DNA from: an uncultured Porphyromonadaceae bacterium
GTDB lineage: Bacteria > Bacteroidota > Bacteroidia > Bacteroidales > Muribaculaceae
Assembly: GCA_947649495.1 (NCBI GenBank)
Contig: CANSRU010000019.1
Location: 1 to 33,977, forward strand
DNA: 33,977 nucleotides
Reading direction: 5' to 3'
The position numbers were made by a program, and so were the translations under genes. The first letter of the stretch is position 1, and each line of letters begins with the position of its first letter. Shown here one piece after another: positions 8,469-31,786 of this stretch. Under the pieces are notes generated by a model, which was given only the letters and a program-made list of their open reading frames with translations, was not told the DNA's origin and did no database searches.

Positions 8469-12746
<4,278 letters not shown>

Positions 12747-12777
12747 TTGAATCCGATTCAAAAATAAACTCCGTATA

Positions 12778-12814
12778 GCAGGGGCGGCGCCTGATGGTGC
12801 CGCCCCTGCATTTT
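12778..12814 (+). terminator. Intrinsic terminator after rpoC
   Basis: GCAGGGGCGGCGCC (12778-12791) pairs with GGTGCCGCCCCTGC (12796-12809) around a four-base TGAT loop, followed by ATTTTA. It is a very stable GC-rich stem with a short T tract and marks the end of the rpoBC transcript. Confidence 0.85.
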
Positions 12815-12869
12815 ATCCATTCGACAAAATTTACATCTGCGCCAACCAAAATATCACCGGCGATTGTTG

Positions 12870-12877
12870 TAACTTTG
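12870..12877 (+). promoter_or_regulatory. Possible -7 promoter box for the RNA helicase gene
   Basis: TAACTTTG matches the Bacteroidota -7 consensus TAnnTTTG and lies 24 bp before the helicase ATG, downstream of the rpoC terminator. No TTG is present at the expected 19-21 bp upstream, so only half of the promoter signature is seen. Confidence 0.4.
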
Positions 12878-12901
12878 TCAAAACAACAAAATTCAAGTAT
12901 A

Positions 12902-14686: not shown

Positions 14687-14691
14687 CTTTG
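14684..14691 (+). promoter_or_regulatory. Putative -7 promoter box overlapping the helicase stop codon
   Basis: TAACTTTG, followed by C, matches the Bacteroidota -7 consensus. Its first three bases are the TAA stop codon of the helicase gene. The upstream region is A-rich with no clear TTG at -33. It would drive the DUF3256-like gene, xseA and xseB, with a start predicted near 14698. Confidence 0.45.
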
Positions 14692-14698
14692 CATCATT

Positions 14699-14724
14699 GT
14701 GCCGCAGTACTACAACTGCGGCAC
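14699..14724 (+). other. Perfect 10-bp hairpin at the predicted mRNA 5' end
   Basis: GTGCCGCAGT (14699-14708) and ACTGCGGCAC (14715-14724) form a perfect stem around ACTACA. It starts about 7 bp after the TAACTTTG box, where transcription would begin, so the mRNA may start with this stem. No T run follows, which weakens the alternative of a terminator for the helicase gene. Confidence 0.55.
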
Positions 14725-14758
14725 ATCCCCAACCTCTCATTTCAAAGCCATAGAATCC

Positions 14759-15397
14759 ATGACTTTACGCATAGCCATATCGACTCTTCTGGCCGCAGTT
14801 TCGGCTGTGGCCGGACTGTCGGCTCAGACCACAGCCGCCAAAGCATTCTCCTCGGCACCCCGTCAGGTAATGCCGATGCTCGACACCAACACCCGCCTTG
14901 ACATGATAGACTACTTCAATAGCGGAATGTCGACTCCATCGGCCAATAACCTCAACGGCTCATCGGTAATCACCGCACTGTCACCCGAATCGGTATCCAT
15001 AAAGCTCACCGATGCATCCAGATGCCAGATAGCCATACTCCCGGCAGCCGGCGATTCCGTAATTGCGGTGATAACCACTGTGGCCACTCCGGCTCCCGAC
15101 AGCAAAATGACTTTATACACCGGTGACTGGAGCAAAAACATCACGGCAAAATCCTTCAGCAAGCCTGTGCTGAAAGATTGGCTCACACCTGAGGGACGCA
15201 AGAATATCGACGAGGTTGAATCGCTGGTACCGTTTCTTCTGATAAGCTATGAGTACAACCCTGACAACCGCACGCTGACACTGACCAACAACACCGCGCA
15301 ATTTCTATCTGACGACATCTACACCATCGTGTCGCCATTCCTGCTTCCGGCCATCACCTATCGGTGGGACGGCAAAAAATTTGTTCAGCAGAAATAA
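14759..15397 (+). CDS. Secreted DUF3256-like protein of unknown function
   Basis: The 212-aa product begins with a clear signal peptide (MTLRIAISTLLAAVSAVAGLSAQ), so it is exported across the inner membrane. The mature part starts with a segment containing PRQVMPMLDTNTRLDMIDYF and is otherwise a beta-rich small protein without recognisable catalytic residues. It resembles DUF3256 proteins of Bacteroidales by length, start and position before xseA; I recognise this from memory and have not aligned it. Its stop overlaps the xseA start (TAATG), so translation of the two is probably coupled. I start it at the ATG at 14759 because an upstream in-frame start would overlap the hairpin and lack a signal peptide. 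Confidence 0.65.
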   Translation: MTLRIAISTLLAAVSAVAGLSAQTTAAKAFSSAPRQVMPMLDTNTRLDMIDYFNSGMSTPSANNLNGSSVITALSPESVSIKLTDASRCQIAILPAAGDSVIAVITTVATPAPDSKMTLYTGDWSKNITAKSFSKPVLKDWLTPEGRKNIDEVESLVPFLLISYEYNPDNRTLTLTNNTAQFLSDDIYTIVSPFLLPAITYRWDGKKFVQQK

Positions 15398-16728
15398 TGG
15401 GCATTTTGGAAGAAACACCACAGCCTGTCACACTTCAGGCATTGGCCCGGCGTGTGTCGGCGGCACTGGCCGACACATCCCTGTTCAATGTTTGGGTTGT
15501 GGCCGAACTTTCCGACCTCCGTGTCAACCACGGCCACTGCTACCTCGAGCTGATGGAGAAACATCCATCCACCGGAGCCATACTCGCCCGCATGCGGGCC
15601 GTGATATGGGCCAACGTTTTTCCACGCATAAATGCCGATTTCCTATCCACAACCGGCCAGAGACTCGCAAGCGGCATAAAAGTGATGGTGTGTGGAACAG
15701 TCAATTATCATCCGGCCTTCGGAATGTCATTCGTTATTTCCGCCATAGACCCCGCCTTCACTATGGGCGAGGCCGAACGCCGTCGCCGAGAGATTCTCAG
15801 GAAACTCCAGATTGAAGGTGTGCTCGAACTGAACAGAAGCATCGAATGGCCCGATGTACCTAACCGCATAGCGATAATCTCAGCACCGGGAGCCGCCGGT
15901 TACGGCGATTTCATACACCAGCTTTACACCAATCCCTCCGGATTGAGGTTTCACACACAGCTCTTTCCCGCTGTGATGCAGGGTGAACGCACGTCACCCT
16001 CCGTCATCGCCGCCCTCGACTCCATAGCTGCCGGGATGGACGAATTCGATTGCGTGGTGATAATACGCGGTGGTGGTGCCACCAGCGACCTCCTTGCCTT
16101 CGACGATTACGAGCTTGCCGCCAACATCGCCCAGTTTCCCCTGCCTGTAGTGATAGGCATCGGTCACGAACGCGACACCACAGTGCTCGATTATGTTGCC
16201 AACATGCGCGTCAAGACCCCAACTGCCGCAGCCGAATGGCTGATAGCCCGAGGCGAAAATGCTCTTGCAGCGTTGCGGCGCATAGGAGCCGAGATTCTGC
16301 AATGTGCCACCGACAAGATTGCGGCCGCCAACACACAGCTCGCCTATCTCGACAGCACTCTCGCCATGGCTCCGGCAGCAGCCTTGCAGCGGGCTTCAAG
16401 CCGCATTCACAACGCCACAGTAAGTCTGGCCGGAAGCAGCGCACGCCTCATCGCGCCGCAACTTGCACGCCTTGAAGCCACAGCAACTTCAATAGCTACT
16501 GCCGCACACACAGCCACCCGCCGCGCACTCGACCGCCTCGAGGCACGCACCTCACTGCTTCAGGCACTCTCGCCGGAGGCCACACTCCGCCGTGGTTACA
16601 CCATCACCACCTGCAATGGCCGTGCTGTGACATCTATCAGCCAGCTGAGTCCCGACGCAGAAATAACCACACACCTTGCCGACGGCACAGTAACCTCAAC
16701 CATAACATCCACCCAACACCATAATTAG
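15397..16728 (+). CDS. xseA: Exodeoxyribonuclease VII large subunit
   Basis: XseA is the catalytic subunit of exonuclease VII, which degrades single-stranded DNA in both directions. The 443-aa product has an N-terminal OB-fold (about 10-110, NVWVVAELSDLRVNHGHCYLEL) and the family core with RGGGATSDL (224-232) and GIGHERD (254-260). A coiled, Ala-rich helical region (about 285-395) binds the small subunits, and the GYTI strand lies near the C-terminus. The chosen ATG at 15397 overlaps the upstream stop by one base; an earlier in-frame ATG lies inside the upstream gene and adds non-family sequence. xseB follows after 4 bp. Confidence 0.95.
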   Translation: MGILEETPQPVTLQALARRVSAALADTSLFNVWVVAELSDLRVNHGHCYLELMEKHPSTGAILARMRAVIWANVFPRINADFLSTTGQRLASGIKVMVCGTVNYHPAFGMSFVISAIDPAFTMGEAERRRREILRKLQIEGVLELNRSIEWPDVPNRIAIISAPGAAGYGDFIHQLYTNPSGLRFHTQLFPAVMQGERTSPSVIAALDSIAAGMDEFDCVVIIRGGGATSDLLAFDDYELAANIAQFPLPVVIGIGHERDTTVLDYVANMRVKTPTAAAEWLIARGENALAALRRIGAEILQCATDKIAAANTQLAYLDSTLAMAPAAALQRASSRIHNATVSLAGSSARLIAPQLARLEATATSIATAAHTATRRALDRLEARTSLLQALSPEATLRRGYTITTCNGRAVTSISQLSPDAEITTHLADGTVTSTITSTQHHN

Positions 16729-18380: not shown

Positions 18381-19655
18381 TCATCGGGTATAAAACAATA
18401 TAAGCCGTTCGAGAGCCGACTCGCACACCTTGCAGAATGTGGGATAGGAATTGTTACGCATCCGGCATTCATAAGCCGGGCGGTACACGCCTTTTGCTGA
18501 ATATCCTCCGCCCTCGTACACCCCGACGGGATATTTACCGAAATCGGCCGGACGCGTAGGCACCGGCGTACCGGCAACGAGCATACCATGCCACTTACTG
18601 TCAAAATCCACGAGAGTCGTTATGTTAGGCTCCCACGGTTCCACATCGTGCGGATAGGAATCCTCAAGCGCATCACCCTCATAGAAATATTCATCGGCCA
18701 GCCCACCGAAACTATGGCCGAACTCATGTACCACCACCGGACGGAATCCGGAGTTGCGCGCGGCCGTAAGCAGATAGCTGTTATATATTCCACCGCCACC
18801 ATACTCAGCAGTATTTGCAAGGACTATCAGATGCTCGTATGGCACAGCCGAAGCCGCCGAATGCATGCGCCACACACCGTCGGCCGTCAGATAGCGTTCC
18901 ATACCGAATGTGGTGAAATGCGACCCGAAAGACGTGCGGCGCCATTCCCCCTCATGCGGCACACTAACCCCCTCGTCAGGCGAAGCGCTGAACACAGCCA
19001 CAAAATTGAACTTATCCTTATAACGGCAAAAAGGCTCGTAGGCCAATATCTCATCCACCGCACGCCGCGCATGTCCGTAAAAATCATCAGCTTGCCCCGC
19101 CGTGTAACCCTCGGCAAGAATAGCCACATCAATGCAATCGGCCGCATCGCCACCCTTGTGCAGATAGCGGTAGGGCAACTCCCGACGCTCAAGCTTCTCC
19201 ACAAGGACATCATCCGGACTATATGGCATGCTCAACGACACCAGCGTATCCCGGCGTCCATCTGTAAGAGTCAGCTCCACCACCGATTTACGGCGCGGAA
19301 GCGGCATTAACATGGTGTGTTCGAACGACCGCGCCTCATCGGAAACCCCATCAGTCGCAAGCCATTCATGGAAAAGCGTTGAGAACGAAGAGCGATATAT
19401 CACACTGTCGGTCGCGGCATCGCGCACGGTAAGCTGCCCGTTACCCATATATGGCAACTCATCAAGCCTTCCGCGGCGCCCGGCCCATCCGGCCATCTTA
19501 CCCACCGAGTGTACCAACGCTACCGGCCGTCCACCCCCGGCACCCAGCACATAGTCCACACGCAGCGTCGAGTCGGCAAACACCTCCCCGAAACCTGCTG
19601 CCCACAGCACATCCGCGCCCGCGCAGATCACAAATATCGCTATCAGAAACTTCAT
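18381..19655 (-). CDS. Secreted M64-type metallopeptidase (IgA peptidase M64 family)
   Basis: This is a putative zinc endopeptidase. From the chosen ATG at 19655 it is 424 aa with a signal peptide (MKFLIAIFVICAGADVLWA). An N-terminal beta domain (about 25-165) precedes a catalytic domain with DVAILAEGYT (about 176-185) and the zinc site HEFGHSFGGLADEY (310-323): H310, E311 and H314, with D321 downstream as the likely third ligand. This matches M64 peptidases, a family named for an IgA-cleaving enzyme; many Bacteroidales members have no known substrate. An alternative in-frame ATG at 19664 and a longer upstream extension exist. Cobalamin operon genes lie upstream on the same strand, separated by a hairpin. 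Confidence 0.85.
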   Translation of the reverse strand: MKFLIAIFVICAGADVLWAAGFGEVFADSTLRVDYVLGAGGGRPVALVHSVGKMAGWAGRRGRLDELPYMGNGQLTVRDAATDSVIYRSSFSTLFHEWLATDGVSDEARSFEHTMLMPLPRRKSVVELTLTDGRRDTLVSLSMPYSPDDVLVEKLERRELPYRYLHKGGDAADCIDVAILAEGYTAGQADDFYGHARRAVDEILAYEPFCRYKDKFNFVAVFSASPDEGVSVPHEGEWRRTSFGSHFTTFGMERYLTADGVWRMHSAASAVPYEHLIVLANTAEYGGGGIYNSYLLTAARNSGFRPVVVHEFGHSFGGLADEYFYEGDALEDSYPHDVEPWEPNITTLVDFDSKWHGMLVAGTPVPTRPADFGKYPVGVYEGGGYSAKGVYRPAYECRMRNNSYPTFCKVCESALERLILFYTR

Positions 19656-19663
19656 AACAGCCA

Positions 19664-19695
19664 TAAAGATACAAATAAGCCGCCACGGAACAAAA
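19664..19695 (-). promoter_or_regulatory. Putative promoter for the M64 peptidase gene
   Basis: On the minus strand, TTTTG (19695-19691) is followed 19 bp later by TATCTTTA (19671-19664), a 7/8-type match to the Bacteroidota TTTG / TAnnTTTG pair. Transcription would begin near 19657, almost at the ATG at 19655, implying a leaderless or nearly leaderless message if the promoter is real. Confidence 0.4.
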
Positions 19696-19697
19696 CT

Positions 19698-19727
19698 GCG
19701 GCGCATCTGTTCACACAGACACGCCGC
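19698..19727 (-). terminator. Hairpin downstream of the cobalamin operon
   Basis: GCGGCG and TCTGT on one side (19698-19710) pair with ACAGA and CGCCGC on the other (19715-19727), with a 2x2 internal mismatch and a TCAC loop. On the minus strand it is followed by AGTTTTG. It is the likely end of the five-gene transcript, 53 bp after the 1376-aa gene. The T tract is short. Confidence 0.6.
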
Positions 19728-19779
19728 CAATCGACAGAAAAGAGTCGGGAGTTATACGGAATTTTCTCCCTGAATCAAA

Positions 19780-22700
19780 TTATAGTTTTATCAATTTTGC
19801 AGTCCGCACCTCGCCACCGGCATCTGTACGGACAAGATATGTACCTGCGGGGAGCATGCCTATACTTACCGGCTCTCCGGGAACCACTTCACGGCACAAC
19901 ACACGGATACCGCCAATGGTAAATATCTCTATCCGGCCTGCCACAGTTACATCCACTGTCACATTATCCACAGCCGGATTGGGATATATTCCGAGACCAT
20001 CGGATATCACATCGTCAATGCCGGAGGTGCCCGAAATATTAACAGGTATCACTGTGGCAAACGTCTTTGGCAAATAAGTTTTGTTATTCGAGTGAGCTAT
20101 GGTCCGTGCCACCTTTATATCTCCGGTGGCCACGGTTCCTGCCGGAGCACCCACCTTAAGCTGATCTCCATCAAGAGTCACCGTCACATTGTCAGGCAGA
20201 CTATTGGCCACAATCTCATTAGTACATGTATAGTATCTGTTGACCGAAGCCGCACCCTGATTAACAAACACATCGGCAAGATTCACTGTATGCTCGAAAT
20301 CAGTGTCTGCCACACCGTCAACAGCATAATCCTTTATCAACGGCTTATATATACGCGGAGATATTTTATATGGAATCACATTCATTACGGATGCCCCGGC
20401 ATGGTCTATACATTCCACCGGGAGCGACACTATGGAATCTGCGTCAACAGTTCCGGTAAATTTAACATTCACACGAATATTTCCATTATCGTAGCGCTCC
20501 ACCGACTCAAGCCAGTCACCACTGCCTGATGGTATTCTGGGATATATATCGTAGGAATTCTCCTGGTCTGTACAGAAAGTCGTTTTCTGCTTCAACGATG
20601 AAGTGCGTGATGTCGCATACTCATAGACTGTGGTGGACGACATATTCTTTACCACAGGAGCCACATTATGTCCGATCTCCTCCATAATGGCCATGGTTTT
20701 CGCTCCGGCATAATCAGTTCCGGCCAAAAGTGCGGACTCCGGTTCCTCAATCCATCCACCGTCAACAGTTCCAAACCAATGTATATGGCCTGTGATGTCC
20801 AACACCCCTATCCGGCCATTCAAACCATCGTAGAAGGATATCCCCGACGATTCCGCATCCGCACCTGCAACAGTTGTGGTCTCACCTCCGTAAGCGACAG
20901 TCATCGACACATCAGTACCCGCTCCGGAAGGTATCATCAGAGAGTCGCCGGCACAATACATGCGGCCCGAAAGTCCGTCAGCGTTCACTTCCGTCTCACC
21001 TGCCAATGTCATATCTCCGTCAAGACTGATTTTCAAAACCTTATTTCCGGCCAAAACATAGGCATAAGTACCATCCGAAGCCACGGCATCCACATCACAG
21101 GCCATATCAATTGAACCGCAAGGCTCAAGGTCAGTTTTGTAATAACGGCGCAGGATGGTTCCGTCCGACACAATCAGGCGGTCGGCATAGAGAGCCATAG
21201 AATGAGTGCCGGCAGCCGAAAGCGTGGTCTCGGCCACTTTCTCACCTTTCGACACATTGTATCTCGATACATTCGCGCCCTTGGCCACCCACATATAAGC
21301 ACCCTGTGTGGCTACATCCGTGGCTTGACCGGCTGTGAGCCGCACATCGAGCGACTTCTTCTCGCCCGACTCGGTTGAAATGCTCTCTGCCCGGTCGTCG
21401 TAAACCACAATCAGACTGCGTTCCGAGCCATAATTGTCGGCATAATAATCAAATGCCGTGTCGAAATCTTTAGTAACGCCATATGCGCTTGTAGTGAATG
21501 ATGCCGGATAACGTCCGAACTCCAGACCGGAGAAATCTATACCGAGCACATTATTTTCCAGCGACAGACATCCCTGCACAGCCGGCGATGTCACTGAAAG
21601 CATGTTAACACGCGCATCATTGCCGGTAGTAAAAAGCTTGTCGTTGGTATACGATGCCTTGGCCGCATGGTACGGCACCTTTACCGGATCACTGACAAGC
21701 TGAGTGGCGGGAATCGGGAGCACTGTTACCTTTATAGTGTCGGTCAACGAAGCATCTATTCCTGAAAATACCACAAGTTCCGTCTCCCCCTCGGCAAGAG
21801 CCTTGAAAGTACCGTTGTCGATAGTGCCCACCGCAGGATTGCTGTTGATCCACGAATAGTTGTCGTAGATATATCGGTTGGACGACGTACCGTTGAGCTG
21901 CTCCTTGTTCTGTGTCAGCGATTCCACATTAATATATATTGTCTCCCCTTTTATGCACGATATCGAGTCATTGGACACGGTAGAGGCATTACCCTCGATA
22001 TCTATCATAACTCCGGTCATGGCCACCACCTCAACATCGAACTCATCGGCCGGAGCATCGGCATACTGCTGGAAGTGCACTGTAGTGGTGCCGATTGTCC
22101 TGCCGGTGAAAAGTCCGTTATCATCAATAGATCCTATTGCATCGTCGTCCACCCACCAGCGGGCTTTGCTGCCATCATTGAGCGGACGTCCGTTTTTGAA
22201 TGCCATACCCTCGTAACGGCATGTTCCACCTACCGGCACCTGAAGCTGAGTAATGGAGGCATAGTTCAGGTAATAATCCTTAGGCACATAGTCGGGGTCG
22301 GGATTCGTTATACCAACACCGGTAACTTCGGTCGACCATTCACCGAGCCATCCCGCATTTACGGAACCGGCCGTATAAATCTTCACAAAATCTATGTGGT
22401 CAAGATTAACATAATTGCCCTCCTTGTCTACAGCCCAGCTTATATCAAAACCATTGGTCGATTTGCCGTTTTCGTCATCATAATATGGATTACGTGCCAC
22501 GGTAAGGTCGGAATTATCAGGTTTGTTGTCACAATATCCGAATGCCGGACAACGGTAGAATTCTATATACGATGGGACGCGCTTATCGAGCGATGAGCGT
22601 ATAAGCGTACCGCCGAACGACAATTTTCCATCCTTTATCTTTTCGGCAGCTGCCGGATACACCGCGGGATCGGGGAAATATGGCTGTTCGTGAAACTGAT

Positions 22701-23910
22701 TGGTGAGCAGCGCGCCGGCCATACCGTTGTCGGTAGTCCATGGCACGGTATATCGCTTGTTATAGGCGGGGTCGGTATATGTCATGGTGATGTTACGATG
22801 GGAGGTACTGAACCAGTAGTCGCTGCCGGCGAGTTCGTACCATTCGTCATCAGCCAGACCGTTACCATTGTCATCGCGACTCACCATCACAGCTCCCGGC
22901 TCGGTCCACACCCCTTTGGCCGCTGCGACAAATGAATTGCCGCCTATAGAGAAGTCCACTCCGTAAGGATTCTGAGGATTGTTCATAATAGGCTGGTCAA
23001 AGCCAACTATCACGTAACCGCCAAAGCCTCCGAGCGACACAAGTCCGTCAGACTGAGGCACGCTGCTCGAACCCGAACTGCTGCCCTTGCCTATCAGACA
23101 TGAGGCATCGTTGAACGAACCGCCCGAGTTGGTGAACTGCCCCGGAGCGGGCAGGAACTCTATTATGCGCGACACGAGTGCATTCTTACGCACGAGCACC
23201 GCCACTTCAGCCTCGGCATAGTTGCCGCTGGCCAGCGTGATGCGGAAACGGAAACTGTCGCGGGTGTAGTTATCCAGACCTTCGGCGGGAGTATACACCA
23301 CGGCCTGACGGTAATACCGGGTGTTGAATCTGTCGTAATGGAGTGTATCGACAGCGAACGAGCCATGGGATGGCGCACGCACAATGGTGAGTTCAGAAAT
23401 GTTCTCGGCCGGCTCTTTTGTCACATTGTGCTGCGACCGCAGACTCGTAACAGAACCAAGCACATCAAGTTTGCAAGGTGTCCCTATGGTAGCATACACC
23501 TTCATATCTGACGCCGTCACCTCGACAATGCTGAATTTAAGCACATTGACAAAAACCTCTCCTCCATACGTCAGCTTTACCGTCACATTGGCATCTCCCA
23601 ATTGATTGGCCTTTACCGTGAGGCTTATGTTATTCTTCTTATAGCCTGACATCCAGCTGTACGATTTGAACGAAACCAGATCTTCATTATCAGAAGTCAC
23701 GTCCACCGTAACACCATGGGTATCGAGATTCTCTGTAGCAGCTATCGTATCGGGAAATTCAAATATATCGGCTATATACACCGACTTGGTAGTATTGGTT
23801 GTCGAGGCTACAGCCGTAAGCTCGTAAGGCCGCGGCACAAACTTTTCGGCCGCCACCGCTTTCAACGCGCATATCAACGCGATGACACATAACATCAGTA
23901 ACTTTCTCAT
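19780..23910 (-). CDS. Giant T9SS-exported multidomain surface protein of the cobalamin operon
   Basis: The 1376-aa protein has no known function. Order: signal peptide (1-21); Ig/PKD-like beta domains (about 25-245); a domain shared with the neighbouring 410-aa lipoprotein (about 248-535, with PAPGQF, DDNGNGLADDEWYELAGSDY and GWLGEWSTE); two bacterial Ig-like domains (about 550-735); a linker; a repeat region resembling a beta-propeller (about 830-1060, blades such as GAYMWVAKGANVSRYNV and GTYAYVLAGNKVLKISL); further beta domains (about 1090-1290); and a type A T9SS sorting domain (about 1300-1376, GIYPNPAVDNVTV and LPAGTYLVR). It is the last gene of the riboswitch-controlled operon, 15 bp after its neighbour. 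Surface capture of corrinoids or corrinoid-protein complexes is inferred from context. Confidence 0.8.
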   Translation of the reverse strand: MRKLLMLCVIALICALKAVAAEKFVPRPYELTAVASTTNTTKSVYIADIFEFPDTIAATENLDTHGVTVDVTSDNEDLVSFKSYSWMSGYKKNNISLTVKANQLGDANVTVKLTYGGEVFVNVLKFSIVEVTASDMKVYATIGTPCKLDVLGSVTSLRSQHNVTKEPAENISELTIVRAPSHGSFAVDTLHYDRFNTRYYRQAVVYTPAEGLDNYTRDSFRFRITLASGNYAEAEVAVLVRKNALVSRIIEFLPAPGQFTNSGGSFNDASCLIGKGSSSGSSSVPQSDGLVSLGGFGGYVIVGFDQPIMNNPQNPYGVDFSIGGNSFVAAAKGVWTEPGAVMVSRDDNGNGLADDEWYELAGSDYWFSTSHRNITMTYTDPAYNKRYTVPWTTDNGMAGALLTNQFHEQPYFPDPAVYPAAAEKIKDGKLSFGGTLIRSSLDKRVPSYIEFYRCPAFGYCDNKPDNSDLTVARNPYYDDENGKSTNGFDISWAVDKEGNYVNLDHIDFVKIYTAGSVNAGWLGEWSTEVTGVGITNPDPDYVPKDYYLNYASITQLQVPVGGTCRYEGMAFKNGRPLNDGSKARWWVDDDAIGSIDDNGLFTGRTIGTTTVHFQQYADAPADEFDVEVVAMTGVMIDIEGNASTVSNDSISCIKGETIYINVESLTQNKEQLNGTSSNRYIYDNYSWINSNPAVGTIDNGTFKALAEGETELVVFSGIDASLTDTIKVTVLPIPATQLVSDPVKVPYHAAKASYTNDKLFTTGNDARVNMLSVTSPAVQGCLSLENNVLGIDFSGLEFGRYPASFTTSAYGVTKDFDTAFDYYADNYGSERSLIVVYDDRAESISTESGEKKSLDVRLTAGQATDVATQGAYMWVAKGANVSRYNVSKGEKVAETTLSAAGTHSMALYADRLIVSDGTILRRYYKTDLEPCGSIDMACDVDAVASDGTYAYVLAGNKVLKISLDGDMTLAGETEVNADGLSGRMYCAGDSLMIPSGAGTDVSMTVAYGGETTTVAGADAESSGISFYDGLNGRIGVLDITGHIHWFGTVDGGWIEEPESALLAGTDYAGAKTMAIMEEIGHNVAPVVKNMSSTTVYEYATSRTSSLKQKTTFCTDQENSYDIYPRIPSGSGDWLESVERYDNGNIRVNVKFTGTVDADSIVSLPVECIDHAGASVMNVIPYKISPRIYKPLIKDYAVDGVADTDFEHTVNLADVFVNQGAASVNRYYTCTNEIVANSLPDNVTVTLDGDQLKVGAPAGTVATGDIKVARTIAHSNNKTYLPKTFATVIPVNISGTSGIDDVISDGLGIYPNPAVDNVTVDVTVAGRIEIFTIGGIRVLCREVVPGEPVSIGMLPAGTYLVRTDAGGEVRTAKLIKL

Positions 23911-23925
23911 TGCTAAAATATATGG

Positions 23926-25698
23926 TTAGTTTTTCACATAAATCTTACTTCTGACTCCGTTGGCCGACACAATGTAGATTCCATCCGGAAGCCCATGTGC
24001 CGCCTGCGAGCGATAACCGTGGTAACGGCGCACCTCACGCCCCATTGTCGTATATACTACCACATCGCCATAGCTGTTATCGGCATCCACACTCTCTATA
24101 GAAGCCACAGAACCGGTCACCGTCATGGTATGGTCCACAGTACGCCCGTTGGAGTCAAACTGCACTGTGACATCAGATGAACCGGGACGCAGGCAGCTCA
24201 GCACCAGATCACCACGCTTTATTTCAGCCGATATGCATTCGGGATTACTGTTTGACACCACCCTTTTAACTATGGACACCACCGGTGTATCGGCATCGGT
24301 TACCTTGTCACCGAGCGTTATGGTCTCGGCCACGGTTCCAAGCGACACAACCTCGGGCATATTCCTCACCACAGGAACTTCTGTATCGGGAAATATGAAC
24401 ATGGCCGGGTACCAGTAGTTGCTTATCAATTTCCATTCCGCATCGGGTTCCACCGATGTGCCGCGGTCGGAGTAACGGCGGTAAATCCAGTTCTGATTGG
24501 CGATGGAGCTTCCGTAGTAGAAATGGCAATACAGTTTATCGTCGACGGGACTCACCCTTAGCGAAGAACTATAGAACCACAGATTACCGTCAATCGAGGA
24601 ATTATATATCAGATCAGTATAATCGCGGTCAATGTCGTAACGGTACAACATGCAGTCGGAAAACCACGACATAGCTCCGGCCGAAGGGTCGGCATAAGTG
24701 AAGTACAACACATTACGCTTGGCCGATGCGGCAAGTTTGCCGGCCGTCCATGCATACCACGACTGTGGCACTCCGCCGATATGCAGCGTTACCTTTCTGG
24801 TTTCAAGTGTATAGGGGTCTATGCGCAGAAGTCCGTTGCCTTTCCATGCGCTTCCCGAGTTTCCATACGGATAGTGCGTGAGAGGCACTCCGAATTCATT
24901 GACCTCATCGGGATCAGCAAGATTCATTCCGGCCCACAGCGAACCGTCGGCGGCCTGCACCATGGTGCTGAAACAACCCTCTATCACATCCACAATCCGG
25001 TCGGTAACGGGGTCTATCACCAATATGCCCTTATCTTGCTTGATGGCAAAAACATAGTCCTGCGTACGTATCATCACACCTATCTGGTTCTGATACAGCG
25101 GTCCCTGACCATCGGCATTGTTTTCATCTCCATTCACCAGTTCGTTTTCAGAACCATCGATACATCCGGTCACCTCCATGGCCCCGGTGTCGAAAATATA
25201 AATTCCATTGGATGTGCCGAGATATACTTTCTGAGGAGTCACACCGCAGCACGCACGCCCATCGCCGAGTGCCGTACCCGACACAATGCCTCCGGCTGCA
25301 CTGCCGGAGTCGTCGGCCACTCCACGCGGATTGATAACCTCAAGCTGACACAGACACTTCATGGTCGAAGCATCAATAACGGTGAGACGGCCCCCCGACA
25401 TGGTCGCTCCTGGATCCTTGTGTTGCTTGGCCATCACATACAGACGCCCGCCGAACATCTGCCCATACTGCGCCGTGCAGCCGAGTTCAAGACCGTTGAC
25501 CGACTGGAACACACGATAGCGTACCAGATTGTAGGGATCGTCCGTATTGTCAGGATACCACATATTGATGGTGGAGTTCTGATGACCGTACCAATCCTCA
25601 TTCAGCACAAACACCCCCGACGAGAAATCATCGTCGACGAAAGCTTGCGCCGTTACCGACACCACAGCAAGTGTCATTGCAAGTAAAATTTTGTTCAT
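23926..25698 (-). CDS. T9SS-tailed beta-propeller protein (DUF5074/BtuG-like)
   Basis: The 590-aa product has a signal peptide (MNKILLAMTLAVVSVTAQA) without a lipobox cysteine. A beta-propeller-like region (about 25-440) opens with VFVLNEDWYGHQNSTINMWY, which parallels LLNEGNMGSNKASIDFVDF at the start of the BtuG-like lipoprotein in the same operon. Blade strands such as GRLTVIDASTMKCL and GILVIDPVTDRIVDVI recur. A linker domain (about 440-530) and a short T9SS-type tail follow (GREVRRY, LPDGIYIVSANGVRSKIYVKN near the end). I read it as a T9SS-exported relative of BtuG. Binding of corrinoid is inferred from homology and from the shared riboswitch. Confidence 0.8.
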   Translation of the reverse strand: MNKILLAMTLAVVSVTAQAFVDDDFSSGVFVLNEDWYGHQNSTINMWYPDNTDDPYNLVRYRVFQSVNGLELGCTAQYGQMFGGRLYVMAKQHKDPGATMSGGRLTVIDASTMKCLCQLEVINPRGVADDSGSAAGGIVSGTALGDGRACCGVTPQKVYLGTSNGIYIFDTGAMEVTGCIDGSENELVNGDENNADGQGPLYQNQIGVMIRTQDYVFAIKQDKGILVIDPVTDRIVDVIEGCFSTMVQAADGSLWAGMNLADPDEVNEFGVPLTHYPYGNSGSAWKGNGLLRIDPYTLETRKVTLHIGGVPQSWYAWTAGKLAASAKRNVLYFTYADPSAGAMSWFSDCMLYRYDIDRDYTDLIYNSSIDGNLWFYSSSLRVSPVDDKLYCHFYYGSSIANQNWIYRRYSDRGTSVEPDAEWKLISNYWYPAMFIFPDTEVPVVRNMPEVVSLGTVAETITLGDKVTDADTPVVSIVKRVVSNSNPECISAEIKRGDLVLSCLRPGSSDVTVQFDSNGRTVDHTMTVTGSVASIESVDADNSYGDVVVYTTMGREVRRYHGYRSQAAHGLPDGIYIVSANGVRSKIYVKN

Positions 25699-25742
25699 AA
25701 ACAGTATTTATATATTGAATAATTGTGTGTGATAAATCAGTA

Positions 25743-26975
25743 TCAAACATCAGGAAGCGGCACGGTACCATCGGGCACATGAAGATCCTCGGCTCTCGAA
25801 ATCTCGGTGGATGTCTCGCCGAGCCATCCGCACTGCTGGTTCACTCCGGTGTAGACCCGTATGAAATCAACGCCTTCAAGATGCACCGGCCTACCGAACG
25901 CATCGACCGCCCAGTCTATCTTGAAACAGGACAGATCGCCGGCATTATTGGGATGATTATCAACATATCCCCATGGGAAACAATAAAGCACATAATATGA
26001 ACCCTGATGGCTCTCGTCAACTCCGTTGCGCGGCAGAAGAGTACCTGAAAAACTCATCACATCGTCTGATATCCATCCGGGCCAATAGTCCTGCGAGTGA
26101 TAAACATTGCGCTCCACATAGCCCGAAACACCATCGTTGCCCTCATAACGTATGTACTCGGCATCGGTAATATTTCCATCCTTGCGCACAGGCTGATGGT
26201 CAGGCGACGGACGATGATAGGTTACGGAATAATTGTGACGTGTGGCAGGATTGGCATACTCGCTGCCCGCAAGCTCATACCATGGGTCGTCGGGAATACC
26301 GTTGCCGTTACAGTCCACCGACACCATCACTATTCCCGGTTCGGCACTTCCACCGGGATTCGTGGCGTCGGGATTCGGATTGGAAGCCGAATAGAATGAA
26401 TTGCCGTCAATACGGAAATCATATTGTCCGGGCACATTGACCACGGTGTGGTCGAAAGCGAAAGTCACATAGCCGCCGTAATTGCCGAGCGACACGAGAA
26501 TATCGTTCTTACCTCCGATACATTCAAGCACTTTGCGGCACATATCCTTCTCCGTATCCCCGGGCTCGTATTTCGGAAGCTCGTTGATGAATTGTCCGGG
26601 AGCCGGGCGATATTCAAGCACTTCGGAGATATAGCGGGAATAAGCCACATCTTCGTTCCACACTTTTATGAGCACGCTATGCTCAACAGGATCGGTAGGC
26701 GATGCTATACGCAATGTCACCTCGTAGTCGCCGGCCTTCGGAGCACAGAAATAGTAATCGCGCTGTGTGCACACCACCGAATCGCGGCCATGCGCGTCGG
26801 GCATGCTCCATACATAGCTCTCACCCGGATACTCCGGATGCAGACGCAGTGTGCGCATGCGGTAGACACTGTATACATTATCGATACCGAGGTTTACCAT
26901 CGGGACACCGTCGCTGCACCCTGCCGATGTCAGGGCTACCGATATTATTGAAATATAACTGTATATGCTTTTCAT
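25743..26975 (-). CDS. Cell-surface lipoprotein of the cobalamin operon (possible BtuH-type corrinoid binder)
   Basis: The 410-aa product has a lipoprotein signal (lipobox TSAGC, cysteine 20). An Ig/PKD-like domain (about 30-105) precedes a domain (about 113-395) homologous to residues 248-535 of the 1376-aa protein. Shared marks are EYRPAPGQF (121-129), DCNGNGIPDDPWYELAGSEY (221-240), FKIDWAVD (351-358) and GWLGETSTE (383-391). The D-x-N-G-N-G-x-x-D-D stretch resembles a calcium-binding loop. Gut Bacteroidetes cobalamin loci carry a second class of B12-binding lipoproteins called BtuH; this gene is a candidate by position, but I could not align it. It starts 6 bp after btuG. Confidence 0.7.
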   Translation of the reverse strand: MKSIYSYISIISVALTSAGCSDGVPMVNLGIDNVYSVYRMRTLRLHPEYPGESYVWSMPDAHGRDSVVCTQRDYYFCAPKAGDYEVTLRIASPTDPVEHSVLIKVWNEDVAYSRYISEVLEYRPAPGQFINELPKYEPGDTEKDMCRKVLECIGGKNDILVSLGNYGGYVTFAFDHTVVNVPGQYDFRIDGNSFYSASNPNPDATNPGGSAEPGIVMVSVDCNGNGIPDDPWYELAGSEYANPATRHNYSVTYHRPSPDHQPVRKDGNITDAEYIRYEGNDGVSGYVERNVYHSQDYWPGWISDDVMSFSGTLLPRNGVDESHQGSYYVLYCFPWGYVDNHPNNAGDLSCFKIDWAVDAFGRPVHLEGVDFIRVYTGVNQQCGWLGETSTEISRAEDLHVPDGTVPLPDV

Positions 26976-26981
26976 AATGAA

Positions 26982-28136
26982 TCACTCGTAAAGAAATACC
27001 ATGTGGGCAGGAATATCCCCCGTGCGCACGCTCCATTTACGCCGTCCATAGCGGTTATAGCAGTGGAGCTGCCCGCTCGACACATAATTTTTAGCATCGG
27101 TCACGTAGATATCTCCATTTGAAGGGTTTATGCTGATTCCATAAGGAATCTCTATGTCGGCCGCGGTACCATCTATGATGAACGACTCCGACACCTGACG
27201 GCGGGTGCGGATGTCGATTATACCATAGGTTATGTTATTGCGCTCGAGAGCATAATTCCATTCGGTAGAGTAGAAATACAGTGAGTCGCCATGTATGCAC
27301 ATCTCTGTACATGGAATGTCGAGGGTGTCAGTCACCACCATGTCCGACGACCATTTGCTCTCCTTTTCCAGAACAAACAATTTGGAATGCACTCCGTTGT
27401 AGTCTCCCCGGGATGTAACCCACAGCTTGCCGTAACGGTCGGCCCTGATACGGTGGAGATTGATGCCCACCGGTATCTTCCTCACCTGTTTCATGCCGTG
27501 ACGCTCCACAACCGACACTGTACGGTCGTAGTTTGGAGCCCGATATCCACCGGAGTTGGCCACATATATATATTCGCCCATTATCTCAAGTTCGTCGGGC
27601 TGATAACCGACGGTGCATTTGCCGGTAACCTGCAGCGATGCCGTATCAACCTGATATACTGCGCCGGCCTGGGCATTGGGATCCATCTGCACCGGTCCCA
27701 CATAGGATGTGACATAGGCATGATTGCGGCTGAACTTGATGTAACGGCAGTTAGGTATGTCAATCTGTCCGATACGGCGCAATGTGCGGGCATCCATCAC
27801 CTCGACCTTGTGGGAGCAGTTGATTACGGCATATAGACGCGAACCGTAAATCTGGATATCGTTGCCTACATCCCCCAGTTCCTTTATCACCGATGGATTA
27901 CGCTCGGCATAGAGATTGCGCGCGTAATATCCGTTGCGGAAATCCACAAAGTCTATGGATGCCTTGTTGGAACCCATGTTGCCCTCGTTGAGCAGGTACA
28001 TACCTATGGGCTGGGCGTCGGGTTGCGGACCTCCGGGAATCAGGTCGTACTCCGTAGGCACCACGAGTTCGTCCTCGCGGCACGACACCGCTGCCAGACA
28101 CATCATAGCAATTATCAGATAACGCGACGTCTTCAT
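26982..28136 (-). CDS. btuG: BtuG-like cobalamin-binding surface lipoprotein (DUF5074 beta-propeller)
   Basis: BtuG proteins are surface lipoproteins that bind cobalamin very tightly and cap the BtuB channel. The 384-aa product has a lipobox (LAAVSC, cysteine 19) followed at once by REDEL, an acidic run that fits the surface-export signal of Bacteroidota lipoproteins. The rest is a YncE/DUF5074 beta-propeller: LLNEGNMGSNKASIDFVDF (48-66), GNDIQIYGSRLYAVIN (91-106), VEVMDARTLRRIGQI and later blades ending in GDIYVTDAKNYVSSG. Its ATG overlaps the btuB TGA (ATGA), so it is translationally coupled to the transporter. The symbol rests on family, gene order and riboswitch. Confidence 0.88.
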   Translation of the reverse strand: MKTSRYLIIAMMCLAAVSCREDELVVPTEYDLIPGGPQPDAQPIGMYLLNEGNMGSNKASIDFVDFRNGYYARNLYAERNPSVIKELGDVGNDIQIYGSRLYAVINCSHKVEVMDARTLRRIGQIDIPNCRYIKFSRNHAYVTSYVGPVQMDPNAQAGAVYQVDTASLQVTGKCTVGYQPDELEIMGEYIYVANSGGYRAPNYDRTVSVVERHGMKQVRKIPVGINLHRIRADRYGKLWVTSRGDYNGVHSKLFVLEKESKWSSDMVVTDTLDIPCTEMCIHGDSLYFYSTEWNYALERNNITYGIIDIRTRRQVSESFIIDGTAADIEIPYGISINPSNGDIYVTDAKNYVSSGQLHCYNRYGRRKWSVRTGDIPAHMVFLYE

Positions 28137-30115
28137 ATCTCTATTGTAAGGCCGAAACGATAGTTGCGTTTAGGCATGGGGTAATTCAGTATAACATCAT
28201 AGTCCTGCGAGAAGAGATTGTTTATCTCAGCGGTGGCGCGCATCTTCACCTTGCCGATTTGGAATTCCTTGAGCAATGAAAGGTCGCTCGTGTACCATGG
28301 CTGTGTATAGTTGTAGCGTATGTTCTCCTGCTGATTATAGCGCTCGCCGGTGTAGATGTATGAGTAGTTGAGTGTCCATCCGCGCCATCCTGCCATGCAG
28401 ATGGCCGAGAAACTGTGCCACGGTATGTAAGGTATCTGATGACGGTAATAGTTATCGGCCGGATTGGTCACATCTATGGCTTCCTGATAAGTGTACTGGA
28501 ATTTACCGGTAAGGTCGATTTCGGCAGGCAGTCTGAAAGTGAGCTGTGTCTGCACATCGATTCCCCGTATGTGCACCTTGCCGAGATTAAGCATGGTCCA
28601 CCGGAACTGCTGCCCCTTGGGATAGGCCACAATCTTGTCGCGCACCTCATTGTAATATATATCGGTGCCGATGCTGAAAAACCGGAACGCTCCTTTGGAG
28701 CGCGATATGTCGTAGAGCAGTCCGGCATTGTACTGGATGGCTGTCTCCGGTTTCAGGTAAGCATTGCCCATGTCGGTATAATAGAGGTCATTGAATGTGG
28801 GCATGCGGTAGCTGTGCTTATAGAATGCACGCACCACGAGATTCGGACGGCGAAAAGGCTTCACCGACATGAATACACCGGGGGTGAACTTGAATTTATC
28901 GGGAGCCTCGTCGCGGTCACGCCGTTCCTCGTTAACGGCCGTGAGCAGCGCGCTCGCCTGCGCTTTGAAACAATCGCCGAGAGAGAATGCCGTGGCCGTG
29001 GAAAGCCAGTGGGTGGTACGGTGCACACTCTTATATTCACTCAGTCCGTTCCATTGGAAATCGTAGGCTGCCGACCATTCCCAATTGGGCAGGACAATCA
29101 CCTTTGCGGCACACGACAGGTAAACCTCTTTCTGTTTATAGATATTGTCGACATGTATGAGTTTGTCGTCATTGTTCACATAGCGGGTATAGTCGTAGGC
29201 ATATTTTGCATTTATCTTCATGTCCCAACGTGGAGTGACGTTATATTCCCACATCCCCTGAACAAATGTATTCCGGTCCCACAGACGTTCACCGCGGCGC
29301 CACACATTGTTGACTATCGCTCCGGGCACCCCACGCTCGGAATTATAATGATAGACGAACGCTTTCCAGCGGCCGCGGTTCAGAAAGCCATGCAGTCCGG
29401 CCTCAAAGCGCACGGCATCGATGTCGCCGTTCTGACGCACGGCGGTGGTATCGTAGGCGAGGTCTCCCGATGGGGTGACACGCCGGTAGCGGAATTTGTA
29501 TTTACCTGATGAGGTGAGCCACTCGCCGTTGAAACTGAAACTGACATTGTGACTGAGACGGTAGTCGAACGTGACCGACGCATCGAAAAGGTCGAACGAA
29601 CCGGCACGCAGCGATGCCCGCAGACGTGCTTTCTCACCTTCGGCAAACAGAGGGAACCGCGAGGTGAGATATATCGACCCGGCTGAGCCGAACTCGCGCG
29701 CCGACTGGAAAATTTCGCTTTTCTGTCCGTTGTAGAGACTCACGGACTCTATGTTTTCAAGCGAGTACTTGCCTAAGTCAACCTGACCGTTCTGGGCATT
29801 GCCAAGTTCAATACCGTTGTAATACACCCCCATGTGGTTTGTGCCCATGGAACGTATGTTGACGGTCTTTATACCGCCCACTCCACCATAATCCTTGAGC
29901 TGCACTCCCGAGAAGAAACGCAGGGCATCAGCCACACTGTGCGTCCGCAGGGCGTCAAGCTCCTTGCCTTTCAACGTCTGGGCCGGAATCACATCCTTGT
30001 ATGTCTGGGCCGTCACCGTCACCTCGTCGAGGTTGATGCTGTCGGGGGCTGTTGATGCAGCTGCCGTGCCACACAAAAATCCGGTAAGTAAAATAAAAAT
30101 TGTGTTTCGGTTCAT
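28133..30115 (-). CDS. btuB: BtuB-like TonB-dependent cobalamin receptor
   Basis: This outer-membrane receptor imports corrinoids using TonB energy. I start it at the ATG at 30115 (MNRNTIFILLTGFLCG), giving 660 aa; a GTG two codons upstream is the alternative. Order: signal peptide (1-about 21), TonB box DEVTVTA (about 30-36), plug domain (about 40-155; ADALRFFSGVQLKDYGGVGGI and NIRSMGTNHMGVYYNGIEL) and a 22-strand barrel to the C-terminus (YRFGLTIEI). It is the first gene after the cobalamin riboswitch and is directly coupled to btuG, the known BtuB-BtuG arrangement. There is no SusD-like gene, which argues against a glycan locus. Confidence 0.9.
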   Translation of the reverse strand: MNRNTIFILLTGFLCGTAAASTAPDSINLDEVTVTAQTYKDVIPAQTLKGKELDALRTHSVADALRFFSGVQLKDYGGVGGIKTVNIRSMGTNHMGVYYNGIELGNAQNGQVDLGKYSLENIESVSLYNGQKSEIFQSAREFGSAGSIYLTSRFPLFAEGEKARLRASLRAGSFDLFDASVTFDYRLSHNVSFSFNGEWLTSSGKYKFRYRRVTPSGDLAYDTTAVRQNGDIDAVRFEAGLHGFLNRGRWKAFVYHYNSERGVPGAIVNNVWRRGERLWDRNTFVQGMWEYNVTPRWDMKINAKYAYDYTRYVNNDDKLIHVDNIYKQKEVYLSCAAKVIVLPNWEWSAAYDFQWNGLSEYKSVHRTTHWLSTATAFSLGDCFKAQASALLTAVNEERRDRDEAPDKFKFTPGVFMSVKPFRRPNLVVRAFYKHSYRMPTFNDLYYTDMGNAYLKPETAIQYNAGLLYDISRSKGAFRFFSIGTDIYYNEVRDKIVAYPKGQQFRWTMLNLGKVHIRGIDVQTQLTFRLPAEIDLTGKFQYTYQEAIDVTNPADNYYRHQIPYIPWHSFSAICMAGWRGWTLNYSYIYTGERYNQQENIRYNYTQPWYTSDLSLLKEFQIGKVKMRATAEINNLFSQDYDVILNYPMPKRNYRFGLTIEI

Positions 30116-30206
30116 TATCACTGTGTCAATATCCGACTGTAGTTATCTGCATAAATCAGCTATCAGTCAACAGCAGTGAAACGAACTCTACCCCTACATA
30201 CACAAT

Positions 30207-30231
30207 GCTCTCCACGGCATAGCCGCAGAGC
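30207..30231 (-). other. Stem-loop in the btuB leader, downstream of the riboswitch
   Basis: On the minus strand GCTCT and CGGC pair with GCCG and AGAGC around TAT, giving a compact GC-rich hairpin about 90 nt before the btuB start. No T run follows, so it is not an intrinsic terminator. It may be part of the expression platform or an mRNA stability element. Confidence 0.4.
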
Positions 30232-30277
30232 TGCAACGGTATTTACGGAAGGGGAATGTACGGAAGTCCTTTCGCAG

Positions 30278-30505
30278 TGGCTCGTCCTCGCAAGCCATCA
30301 ACCGATAGCGCAGCGGCAGGTCTTCTGACTCGTTTCCACCAATCCGGTTGCCTTCCCGGGCATATCGCCCAGTGGCATGCTCCGCAGGAGCGGAGACAAC
30401 ACCTGATGGTGTTTGTTGTGAAACTCACAGCAGCGGGACTGTCCGGGATTCTCACCCGGTTCCCTTTTAAGCGCCGCCCCTGCATTACGACCGGGGACAA
30501 GCGCA
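30278..30505 (-). ncRNA. Cobalamin (adenosylcobalamin-type) riboswitch
   Basis: On the minus strand the RNA contains the class hallmarks in order. GGGAACCGGGTGAGAATCCC, then GGACAG and TCCCGCTGCTGTGAG, span 30464-30424. GCCACTGGGC is at 30376-30367 and GGGAAGGC near 30357-30350. The B12 box GAGTCAGAAGACCTGCC is at 30331-30315. A P13-like hairpin, TGGCT...AGCCA with loop TGCGAGGACG, is at 30297-30278 and would supply the kissing-loop partner. It lies between a good promoter and btuB. Ligand binding normally lowers expression, so the whole five-gene operon should be induced when cobalamin is scarce. Edges are approximate. Confidence 0.96.
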
Positions 30506-30517
30506 CCGTTGCACCGG

Positions 30518-30549
30518 CAAAGGTATATACTATTTCGCTAACTGCCAAA
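30518..30549 (-). promoter_or_regulatory. Promoter of the cobalamin operon
   Basis: On the minus strand TTTG (30549-30546) is followed by a 20-bp spacer and TACCTTTG (30525-30518), an exact TTTG / N20 / TAnnTTTG Bacteroidota promoter. Transcription would start near 30510, just before the riboswitch. The -33 box lies 5 bp before the divergent histidine kinase ATG. Confidence 0.8.
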
Positions 30550-30553
30550 CCAC

Positions 30554-31786
30554 ATGCATGCAATATATGCGGGGCATGGACGTTTAACTATTGTGAATAT
30601 CTACGACATCCGACGTTACGGCACCGTGGCCTTTCTGTTCGCCTCCATAGTAGTGGTGGCGGTGTTCCTCTATTTCTCCAACTCGCTCGTGAAAGATCTC
30701 GCGGCTCAGGAGCGGGCACGCATGCAGATATGGGCCGGAGCCACCAAGCAGATTGTCAATGCCGGCAACGGCGCTGCCGACGGCACCGACATAGATTTCC
30801 TTCTGAGCATAATCGAGGCCAACACCAGTATCCCGGTAATGCTCACCGACGACAACGGCAACATTGTGCTTCACCGCAATTTCAGGCTTCCGGCTCCGGC
30901 CGATTCCTCCAATCCGCTTGAGATAAACGAGGAGAATGCCCGGTTCCTTCTGGAGAAACTGAGCGACATGCGCCGCACAACCAATGTGATAGACATTGAG
31001 ATAGACAGCGACATAACCCAGCATCTCTACTACGAGGACTCCACCCTACTGCGCAATCTGAGCCTATACCCTTACGTGCAGCTCATAGTGATGGCTGCAT
31101 TCGTCATGGTGGTGTATTTCGCCGTTACCTCATCCAAGAAAGCTGAACAGAACAAAGTGTGGGTCGGTCTGTCGAAAGAGACGGCACACCAGCTCGGCAC
31201 CCCAATCTCGTCGCTTATGGCATGGATAGAGCTGATGCGCGATTCCGATGCCGACCCCGAGATGGTGGAGGAGATGGACAAGGATGTGAAGCGTCTGTCC
31301 ACCATAGCCTCGCGTTTCTCCAAGATTGGTTCGCAACCCAACATGGAATCCACCGACCTGAATGAGGTAGTGGGGCGCTCGGTCTCGTATATGTCCTCGC
31401 GCATATCCTCGCGCATAGACCTGTCGGTGCATCTCTCTCCCGAAGCACTTACAGTATCAATGTCGGCACCGCTCATCGAGTGGGTGATGGAAAATCTCAT
31501 AAAGAATGCCGTGGATGCCATGGAGGCCCGTGGCAGCATAACCGTAACCACCTTCGCCGACCATGGAATGGCTGTGGTGCTCGTCAAGGACACAGGCAAG
31601 GGAATGACAAGGAAAATGCGCAAGGAGGTGTTCCGCGCCGGATACACCACCAAGAAGCGCGGATGGGGACTTGGACTGACCCTCGCCCGCCGCATAGTGG
31701 AGCAATACCATGGCGGCCGGATTTTCGTGAGCGAGTCTGAACCGGGAGCGGGCACCACATTCCGAATCCAACTGCCACTTGCCTGA
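30554..31786 (+). CDS. Membrane sensor histidine kinase
   Basis: This is a two-component sensor kinase with unknown signal. From the ATG at 30554 it is 410 aa. TM1 is about 24-42, an extracytoplasmic sensor region about 43-170, TM2 about 173-192. A histidine phosphoacceptor helix follows with ETAHQLGTPISSL (H212). The ATPase domain has the N box ENLIKNAVDAM (313-323), G1 DTGKGM (346-351) and G2 GWGLGL (370-375). A GTG at 30593 is an alternative start that keeps TM1 and would clear the promoter of the divergent operon. No response regulator lies nearby, so its partner is elsewhere. The HAD gene follows after 2 bp. Confidence 0.9.
   Translation: MHAIYAGHGRLTIVNIYDIRRYGTVAFLFASIVVVAVFLYFSNSLVKDLAAQERARMQIWAGATKQIVNAGNGAADGTDIDFLLSIIEANTSIPVMLTDDNGNIVLHRNFRLPAPADSSNPLEINEENARFLLEKLSDMRRTTNVIDIEIDSDITQHLYYEDSTLLRNLSLYPYVQLIVMAAFVMVVYFAVTSSKKAEQNKVWVGLSKETAHQLGTPISSLMAWIELMRDSDADPEMVEEMDKDVKRLSTIASRFSKIGSQPNMESTDLNEVVGRSVSYMSSRISSRIDLSVHLSPEALTVSMSAPLIEWVMENLIKNAVDAMEARGSITVTTFADHGMAVVLVKDTGKGMTRKMRKEVFRAGYTTKKRGWGLGLTLARRIVEQYHGGRIFVSESEPGAGTTFRIQLPLA

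Follow-up and report, generated by a model that had tools for sequence, protein, structure and literature searches.

Gut communities are shaped by competition for corrinoids, and the surface proteins described so far for corrinoid capture are lipoproteins, as far as the accessible portions of the literature extend. Complexes of the transporter BtuB with BtuG are established (PMC10404256), as is binding of B12 by BtuH (PMC8941943) and by BtuK1 (PMC12751083), in each case according to the available text of the paper. Here we analysed a stretch of 33,977 nt, the whole of which is called the window, from contig CANSRU010000019.1 (GCA_947649495.1) of an uncultured Porphyromonadaceae bacterium assigned to Muribaculaceae in GTDB. 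It carries an operon in which the genes for BtuB and two lipoproteins are followed by two genes for proteins with tails of the type IX secretion system (T9SS) kind. This layout is probably best explained by an arm for corrinoid capture that is exported by T9SS and controlled by B12. The basis of this reading is gene order, the riboswitch, domains, tails, part of the secretion machinery and conservation of contact residues, from which we infer repression by B12, export, anchoring, binding and hand-over.

A riboswitch-led operon with two sets of putative surface proteins

Five open reading frames were found on the minus strand behind one cobalamin riboswitch (RF00174, 101 bits), just where the initial annotation had placed them. 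After btuB come the genes for the BtuG lipoprotein of 384 amino acids (aa), another lipoprotein of 410 aa, a propeller protein of 590 aa and a protein of 1376 aa (the giant), with intergenic gaps of -4, 6, 44 and 15 bases. The five genes are likely one transcript, because they lie on one strand with short gaps and a hairpin follows the last of them (in a hairpin scan that was at chance overall, with 9 such sites versus 9.9 expected). The btuB gene was listed with a GTG start, and an ATG is located 2 codons further in.

The 384-aa protein matched BtuG1 (8blw) in phmmer with an E-value (E) of 1.1e-37 and its family profile matched BtuG2 (8bmx) at E 4.7e-88, confirming its initial designation as BtuG-like. 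Profile alignment revealed no clear equivalent of BtuG2 residue W194 even in the family of the window's BtuG, and only a few BtuG2 residues are named in the accessible text of PMC10404256. The 410-aa protein possesses a lipoprotein signal, a C-terminal H domain and a gene within the btuB operon, and it matched the H domain of BtuG1 (8blw, E 3.7e-76) and BtuH2 (7biz, E 7.3e-48). These sequence matches identify it as BtuH, whose binding of B12 is published, and led us to reject the family as something new. Its N-terminal region matched PKD_3 at 21.3 bits, below the cut-off of 26.3; BtuH2 has PKD domains before its H domain.

The model of the 590-aa protein reached a predicted local distance difference test score (pLDDT) of 80.3, and Foldseek retrieved BtuK1 (9s6c) as its best PDB match (TMt 0.81, rmsd 3.5), with BtuG2 at rank 5. 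Its profile gave E 5.3e-18 to BtuK1 and 2.8e-4 or worse to BtuG, and its family profile aligned to the BtuG family with a probability of 98.3 (E 2e-14). The propeller, as modelled, is nearest to BtuK1 and then to BtuG; the BtuG likeness that had been read from its N-terminal part thus holds between the families, but the protein was rejected as a plain BtuG copy, since BtuK1 is nearer by Foldseek and by profile. No cysteine within the signal region and no lipobox was found in the 590-aa protein.

The giant displays a signal peptide (seen by eye) without a lipobox and a tail matching TIGR04183 above the cut-off of 23, and the genome encodes core genes of the machinery (SprA 2709 bits, PorU 873 bits) along with 12 T9SS tails, so that both the T9SS-type tail and part of the secretion apparatus on which the initial proposal depended were recovered. 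These are the marks of a T9SS type A cargo. Its H domain of about 290 residues aligned from aa 244 to 530 with 7biz 219-486 in phmmer and shares 35% identity with the 410-aa protein over 307 columns (E 2e-44), or 40% in the domain alignment. What the giant holds is therefore this domain and not the whole 410-aa protein, which narrows the first description. In structure comparison unrelated propellers scored above BtuG for the giant's own propeller, a relationship to BtuG by sequence was rejected at a profile probability of only 19%, and BtuG and BtuK1 were absent among the 50 Foldseek matches listed for the C-terminal model, a multi-domain model over the whole of which TM values are low. The C-terminal modules of the 590-aa protein and the giant (immunoglobulin (Ig)-like part plus tail) are homologous, with a profile probability of 98.6 (E 6e-16). 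The initial scheme, in which each lipoprotein has a T9SS partner, survives as a fold-level pairing within one riboswitch operon, but the 590-aa protein pairs with BtuK1 first, and the giant combines an H domain with a propeller of its own.

The B12 contacts of BtuH2 are Q333, N399, F401, H476, Y510, W511, W577 and L578, as given in the accessible text of PMC8941943; the numbering offset was fixed by W577, after which the remaining seven letters fit the 7biz chain. Seven of the eight contacts are identical in all 15 giants counted (the window's and 14 others, leaving out those of loci L042 and L046), the window's giant reading Q N F H Y (I) W L. The same 15 giants match BtuH2 at 36% of the domain columns, and only 7 of 20,000 random draws of eight columns reached the observed contact identity of 0.875. 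The H domain of the giant is, on this conservation, a candidate B12 binder with BtuH-type contacts kept.

The two sets also differ in their predicted export signals. With E up to 0.05 as the limit, TIGR04183 recognised 92 of the 136 second-set tails in the window and related loci (2 from the window, 12 giants and 122 propeller proteins in the set), versus 4 of the 131 in the lipoprotein set (BtuG, BtuH). A lipobox rule was positive for 58/75 BtuG and 50/69 BtuH proteins, and for 7/84 main propeller proteins, 5/37 distant propeller proteins, 1/16 giants and 0/6 short T9SS H proteins; the rule is crude, and several of the BtuG misses plainly carry a cysteine behind the signal region.

Features of the operon and its products (window positions, nt)
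Feature	Position	Strand	Remarks
Cobalamin riboswitch aptamer RF00174	30298..30525	-	cmscan 101 bits, gathering cut-off 31.5, full model 1-189
btuB, TonB-dependent outer-membrane B12 transporter	28133..30121	-	Pfam plug and barrel; TIGR01779 86.6 bits, cut-off 599.7
btuG-like surface lipoprotein beta-propeller, 384 aa	26982..28136	-	lipobox-like ..AAVSC/REDEL
btuH lipoprotein, 410 aa	25743..26975	-	short PKD-like N-terminal region, then B12-binding domain aa 113-398
DUF5074 propeller protein, BtuK/BtuG-like, 590 aa	23926..25698	-	DUF5074 E 5.1e-100
Propeller of 590-aa protein	24388-25617	-	aa 28-437
Ig-like region of 590-aa protein		-	between propeller and tail
T9SS-like tail of 590-aa protein	23956-24084	-	~aa 539-581
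T9SS-tailed giant, 1376 aa	19780..23910	-	N-terminal region, H domain, Big_2 region, propeller, Ig-like module, T9SS type A tail
BtuH-type B12-binding domain of giant	22315..23184	-	aa 243-532; phmmer vs 7biz E 3.6e-31
Beta-propeller of giant	20665..21429	-	about aa 828-1082
T9SS type A sorting domain of giant	19786..19989	-	aa 1308-1375; TIGR04183 31.5-35 bits, cut-off 23
Terminator-like hairpin, 13 pairs	19698..19727	-	52 bases past giant's stop codon

Downstream of the operon lies an M64 peptidase gene (18381-19730, minus strand), whose listed TTG start overlaps the hairpin and whose more likely start is an ATG some 25 codons further inside. It was considered as a sixth member and is not counted in the operon because the hairpin intervenes between it and the giant. 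On the other side, a histidine kinase gene (30554-31786, plus strand) diverges from the operon 28 bases past the riboswitch match; no NCBIfam model above its cut-off was found for it among the best 25 of 75 matches.

Recurrence and descent of the doubled layout

A contig scan with the 590-aa family alone as query returned 194 relatives, and the best 80 of the 194 yielded 78 loci, or 79 with the window. The five-gene order put forward by the initial annotation recurs in other genera and families: all five genes are present in 16 of the 79 loci, contiguously in 15, including those of Coprobacter secundus, Bacteroides nordii, Paraprevotella, Mariniphaga, Maribellus, metagenome-assembled genomes (MAGs) of Muribaculaceae and Paludibacteraceae, and a Tannerella MAG in which the giant is split. 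The set was also encountered outside the 79 loci, in genome G056 (L042). The riboswitch precedes btuB in each of the seven five-gene loci scanned, of the 15 beside the window. More widely, btuG and an H gene share a strand in 72/79 loci, the other seven being at or near a contig end (L083 still has 1.8 kb upstream). More commonly, these loci have one or two second-set propeller proteins behind btuB-btuG-btuH. Across the order, full-length 590-aa relatives (E under 1e-75) occur in 17/247 genomes.

Other arrangements were observed as well. Prevotella corporis and P. brunnea possess the order btuB-btuG-btuH-propeller-short T9SS H-propeller; their T9SS H protein (L071 8792-9943, L073 7130-8224) consists of little more than the H domain and a short tail of T9SS-like type, and it adjoins the lipoprotein BtuH, with two second-set propeller proteins alongside. 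A T9SS-tailed H protein replaces the BtuH lipoprotein in four loci (L079, L080, L082 and L116). In genome G043, a 665-aa H protein with a T9SS-like tail (L046 10804-12801) is encoded on a different contig from the btuB-btuG-btuH-propeller locus (L048). Many of the same operons (L067, L076, L084, L085, L090, L105 and others) also encode proteins of 1800-2154 aa with a distant DUF5074-type match.

In trees that were quick and carried long-branch warnings, the H domains of the giants formed one group apart from the lipoproteins (SH-aLRT 99 and 100), and this clade spans Muribaculaceae, Bacteroidaceae, Prevotellaceae, Barnesiellaceae and other families. By this sequence grouping the BtuH/giant pair of the window is therefore old and no local copy, and a recent origin of the giant by copying of the neighbouring gene was rejected. 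In the quick trees the short T9SS H proteins branched away from the giants; multiple separate origins of H domains on T9SS proteins were considered and dropped, as one clade for all 21 was not rejected (p-AU 0.70).

The window's genome contains a methylmalonyl-CoA mutase pair, so the cell has a B12 enzyme, and one Peripla_BP_2 protein could be BtuF by its sequence; no match to the MetH activation domain was found in this genome. A second cobalamin-riboswitch locus resides in the same genome (L009, C1:304000-322000; 9795-16192, minus strand; riboswitch C1:318063-318231), in which the riboswitch is followed by a DUF4465 (BtuJ-type) protein, a BtuG-like protein and BtuB. Just upstream in L009 is a further BtuH-domain protein of 581 aa with PKD_3 and a lipobox recognised by eye.

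Weighing the explanations

We propose that the operon would be repressed by B12 and made whole when B12 is scarce. A lipid-anchored set would then consist of BtuG, sitting on BtuB, plus BtuH, and a second set, with ordinary signal peptides and T9SS tails, would comprise the 590-aa propeller and the giant with its BtuH domain and propeller. The T9SS proteins would cross the outer membrane, lose their tails and be attached to surface polysaccharide or released; they may catch corrinoids farther out than the lipoproteins reach and pass them on to BtuH/BtuG and then to BtuB. A bolder extension sees in the giants a partly released "protein cobalophore" delivered by T9SS, which would strip corrinoids from other holders through two candidate sites, one in the H domain and one in the propeller, before passing them to BtuG-BtuB, providing a second, vesicle-independent distance route spread through Bacteroidales. 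We regard this extension as possible but doubtful.

Several observations weigh against a T9SS-exported capture arm. SprA was found in 22 of the 23 genomes that have related loci, and in all 17 in which a full-length 590-aa relative occurs; across the order its base rate is 233 of 247 genomes, so its presence is no evidence of dependence and the co-occurrence was dropped as uninformative. The remaining one of the 23, a MAG with the five-gene locus, gave no SprA match. The long giant is a minority form: at E 0.001 the giant matched in 123/149 genomes of the family, mostly by the H domain alone among the matches listed, and a long relative is present in at least 9 of the 149, one of only 665 aa and outside the operon (L046). 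The other adverse points concern the binding residues and the tails, and are given with the rival to which each lends support.

The first rival holds that the lipoproteins alone work and that the T9SS paralogues have lost corrinoid binding, now being structural or adhesive and co-regulated by descent. It draws on the eighth contact: where BtuH2 has Trp at position 511, 14 of the 15 giants have Ile and the other has Val, and the 74 shorter H proteins carry Tyr (55), Phe (15) or Trp (4) there. Further contacts are gone in two other giants, as read from the alignment, with Met for F401 and Ala-Val for W577-L578 in L042, and Met for F401 and Asn for Y510 in L046. A published precedent exists in BtuK2, which is close to BtuK1 and does not bind cobalamin, whereas BtuK1 does (accessible text of PMC12751083); because of BtuK2, a BtuK-like fold is no proof of corrinoid binding by the 590-aa propeller. 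Against it stand the seven contacts kept unchanged in 15/15 giants at so low an overall match to BtuH2, which random columns seldom equal. We consider loss of binding unlikely.

A second rival, which we rate as slightly less credible still, lets the T9SS proteins bind corrinoids for other ends, either denying them to competitors or robbing host or dietary B12 carriers, with the Ig and propeller modules gripping a carrier or surface. In its favour, the giants combine several domains (Big_2, Ig-like, propeller) and reach 2296 aa in relatives, which exceeds the needs of a simple binder, and the kept BtuH2 contacts also suit this rival. However, the giant directly follows btuB-btuG-btuH-propeller in 15 of 16 loci, and no carrier-binding or protease domain was recognised in the window's giant by Pfam and NCBIfam domain searches.

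Least plausible, and in our judgement very improbable, is that the tails are no working sorting signals, the proteins reaching the surface by another route or staying periplasmic: the 590-aa tail by itself reaches 19.8 bits and so falls short of the cut-off, which qualifies its first designation as T9SS-type, the tail of the relative in L091 has no TIGR04183 match even at E up to 10, and 44 of the 136 second-set tails were unmatched, but two of six tested relatives pass (25.2 and 23.3 bits), the giant's tail lies well above the cut-off, recognition is nearly confined to the second set, and the C-terminal module of the 590-aa protein is homologous to that of the giant.

Comparison with known systems

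The T9SS half of the operon may be new, the lipoprotein half being already known. In the literature searched, with thin coverage of subscription papers and none of preprints, no description of T9SS-exported corrinoid binders was found. The term T9SS has 0 occurrences in the main texts of PMC10404256 and PMC12751083, as have T9SS and type IX in those of PMC8941943 and PMC13398666. The available text of a T9SS review lists a haem binder and has 0 occurrences of vitamin, cobalamin or B12 (PMC10202324), and that of the S24-7 genome paper reports both T9SS and B12 transporters in the family, unlinked. Because it recurs in several families, the doubled layout may represent a so far undescribed means of capturing scarce B12 at a distance. 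If true, a conserved, riboswitch-led T9SS arm would represent a new cargo class for T9SS, and DUF5074 proteins and giant surface proteins, both uncharacterised, would gain a function. It also raises the question why the same B12-binding domain would be exported by two routes from one operon.

To our knowledge, the T9SS cargo HBP35 is not part of a doubled set in a transporter operon. It is likened here by description only, being haem-binding and serving tetrapyrrole uptake, with haem and not a corrinoid as ligand (accessible text of PMC10202324). Closer likenesses are found in B. thetaiotaomicron, as described in the available portions of the papers cited. Its BtuB-BtuG-BtuH operons share with the present one a cobalamin riboswitch, btuB, and btuG and btuH lipoprotein genes (PMC10404256, PMC8941943), and its BtuG1 is a fusion of two modules that are encoded here by separate neighbouring genes (PMC10404256). 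The Btu accessory proteins described there are lipoproteins (PMC10404256, PMC8941943), whereas here a T9SS-tailed set is added. BtuK1 (9s6c), to which the 590-aa propeller is closest in structure, comes from the same organism, in which BtuK and BtuJ are predicted lipoproteins that reach distance by vesicles (PMC12751083); in the operon described here, a T9SS-type tail stands in place of the lipid anchor.

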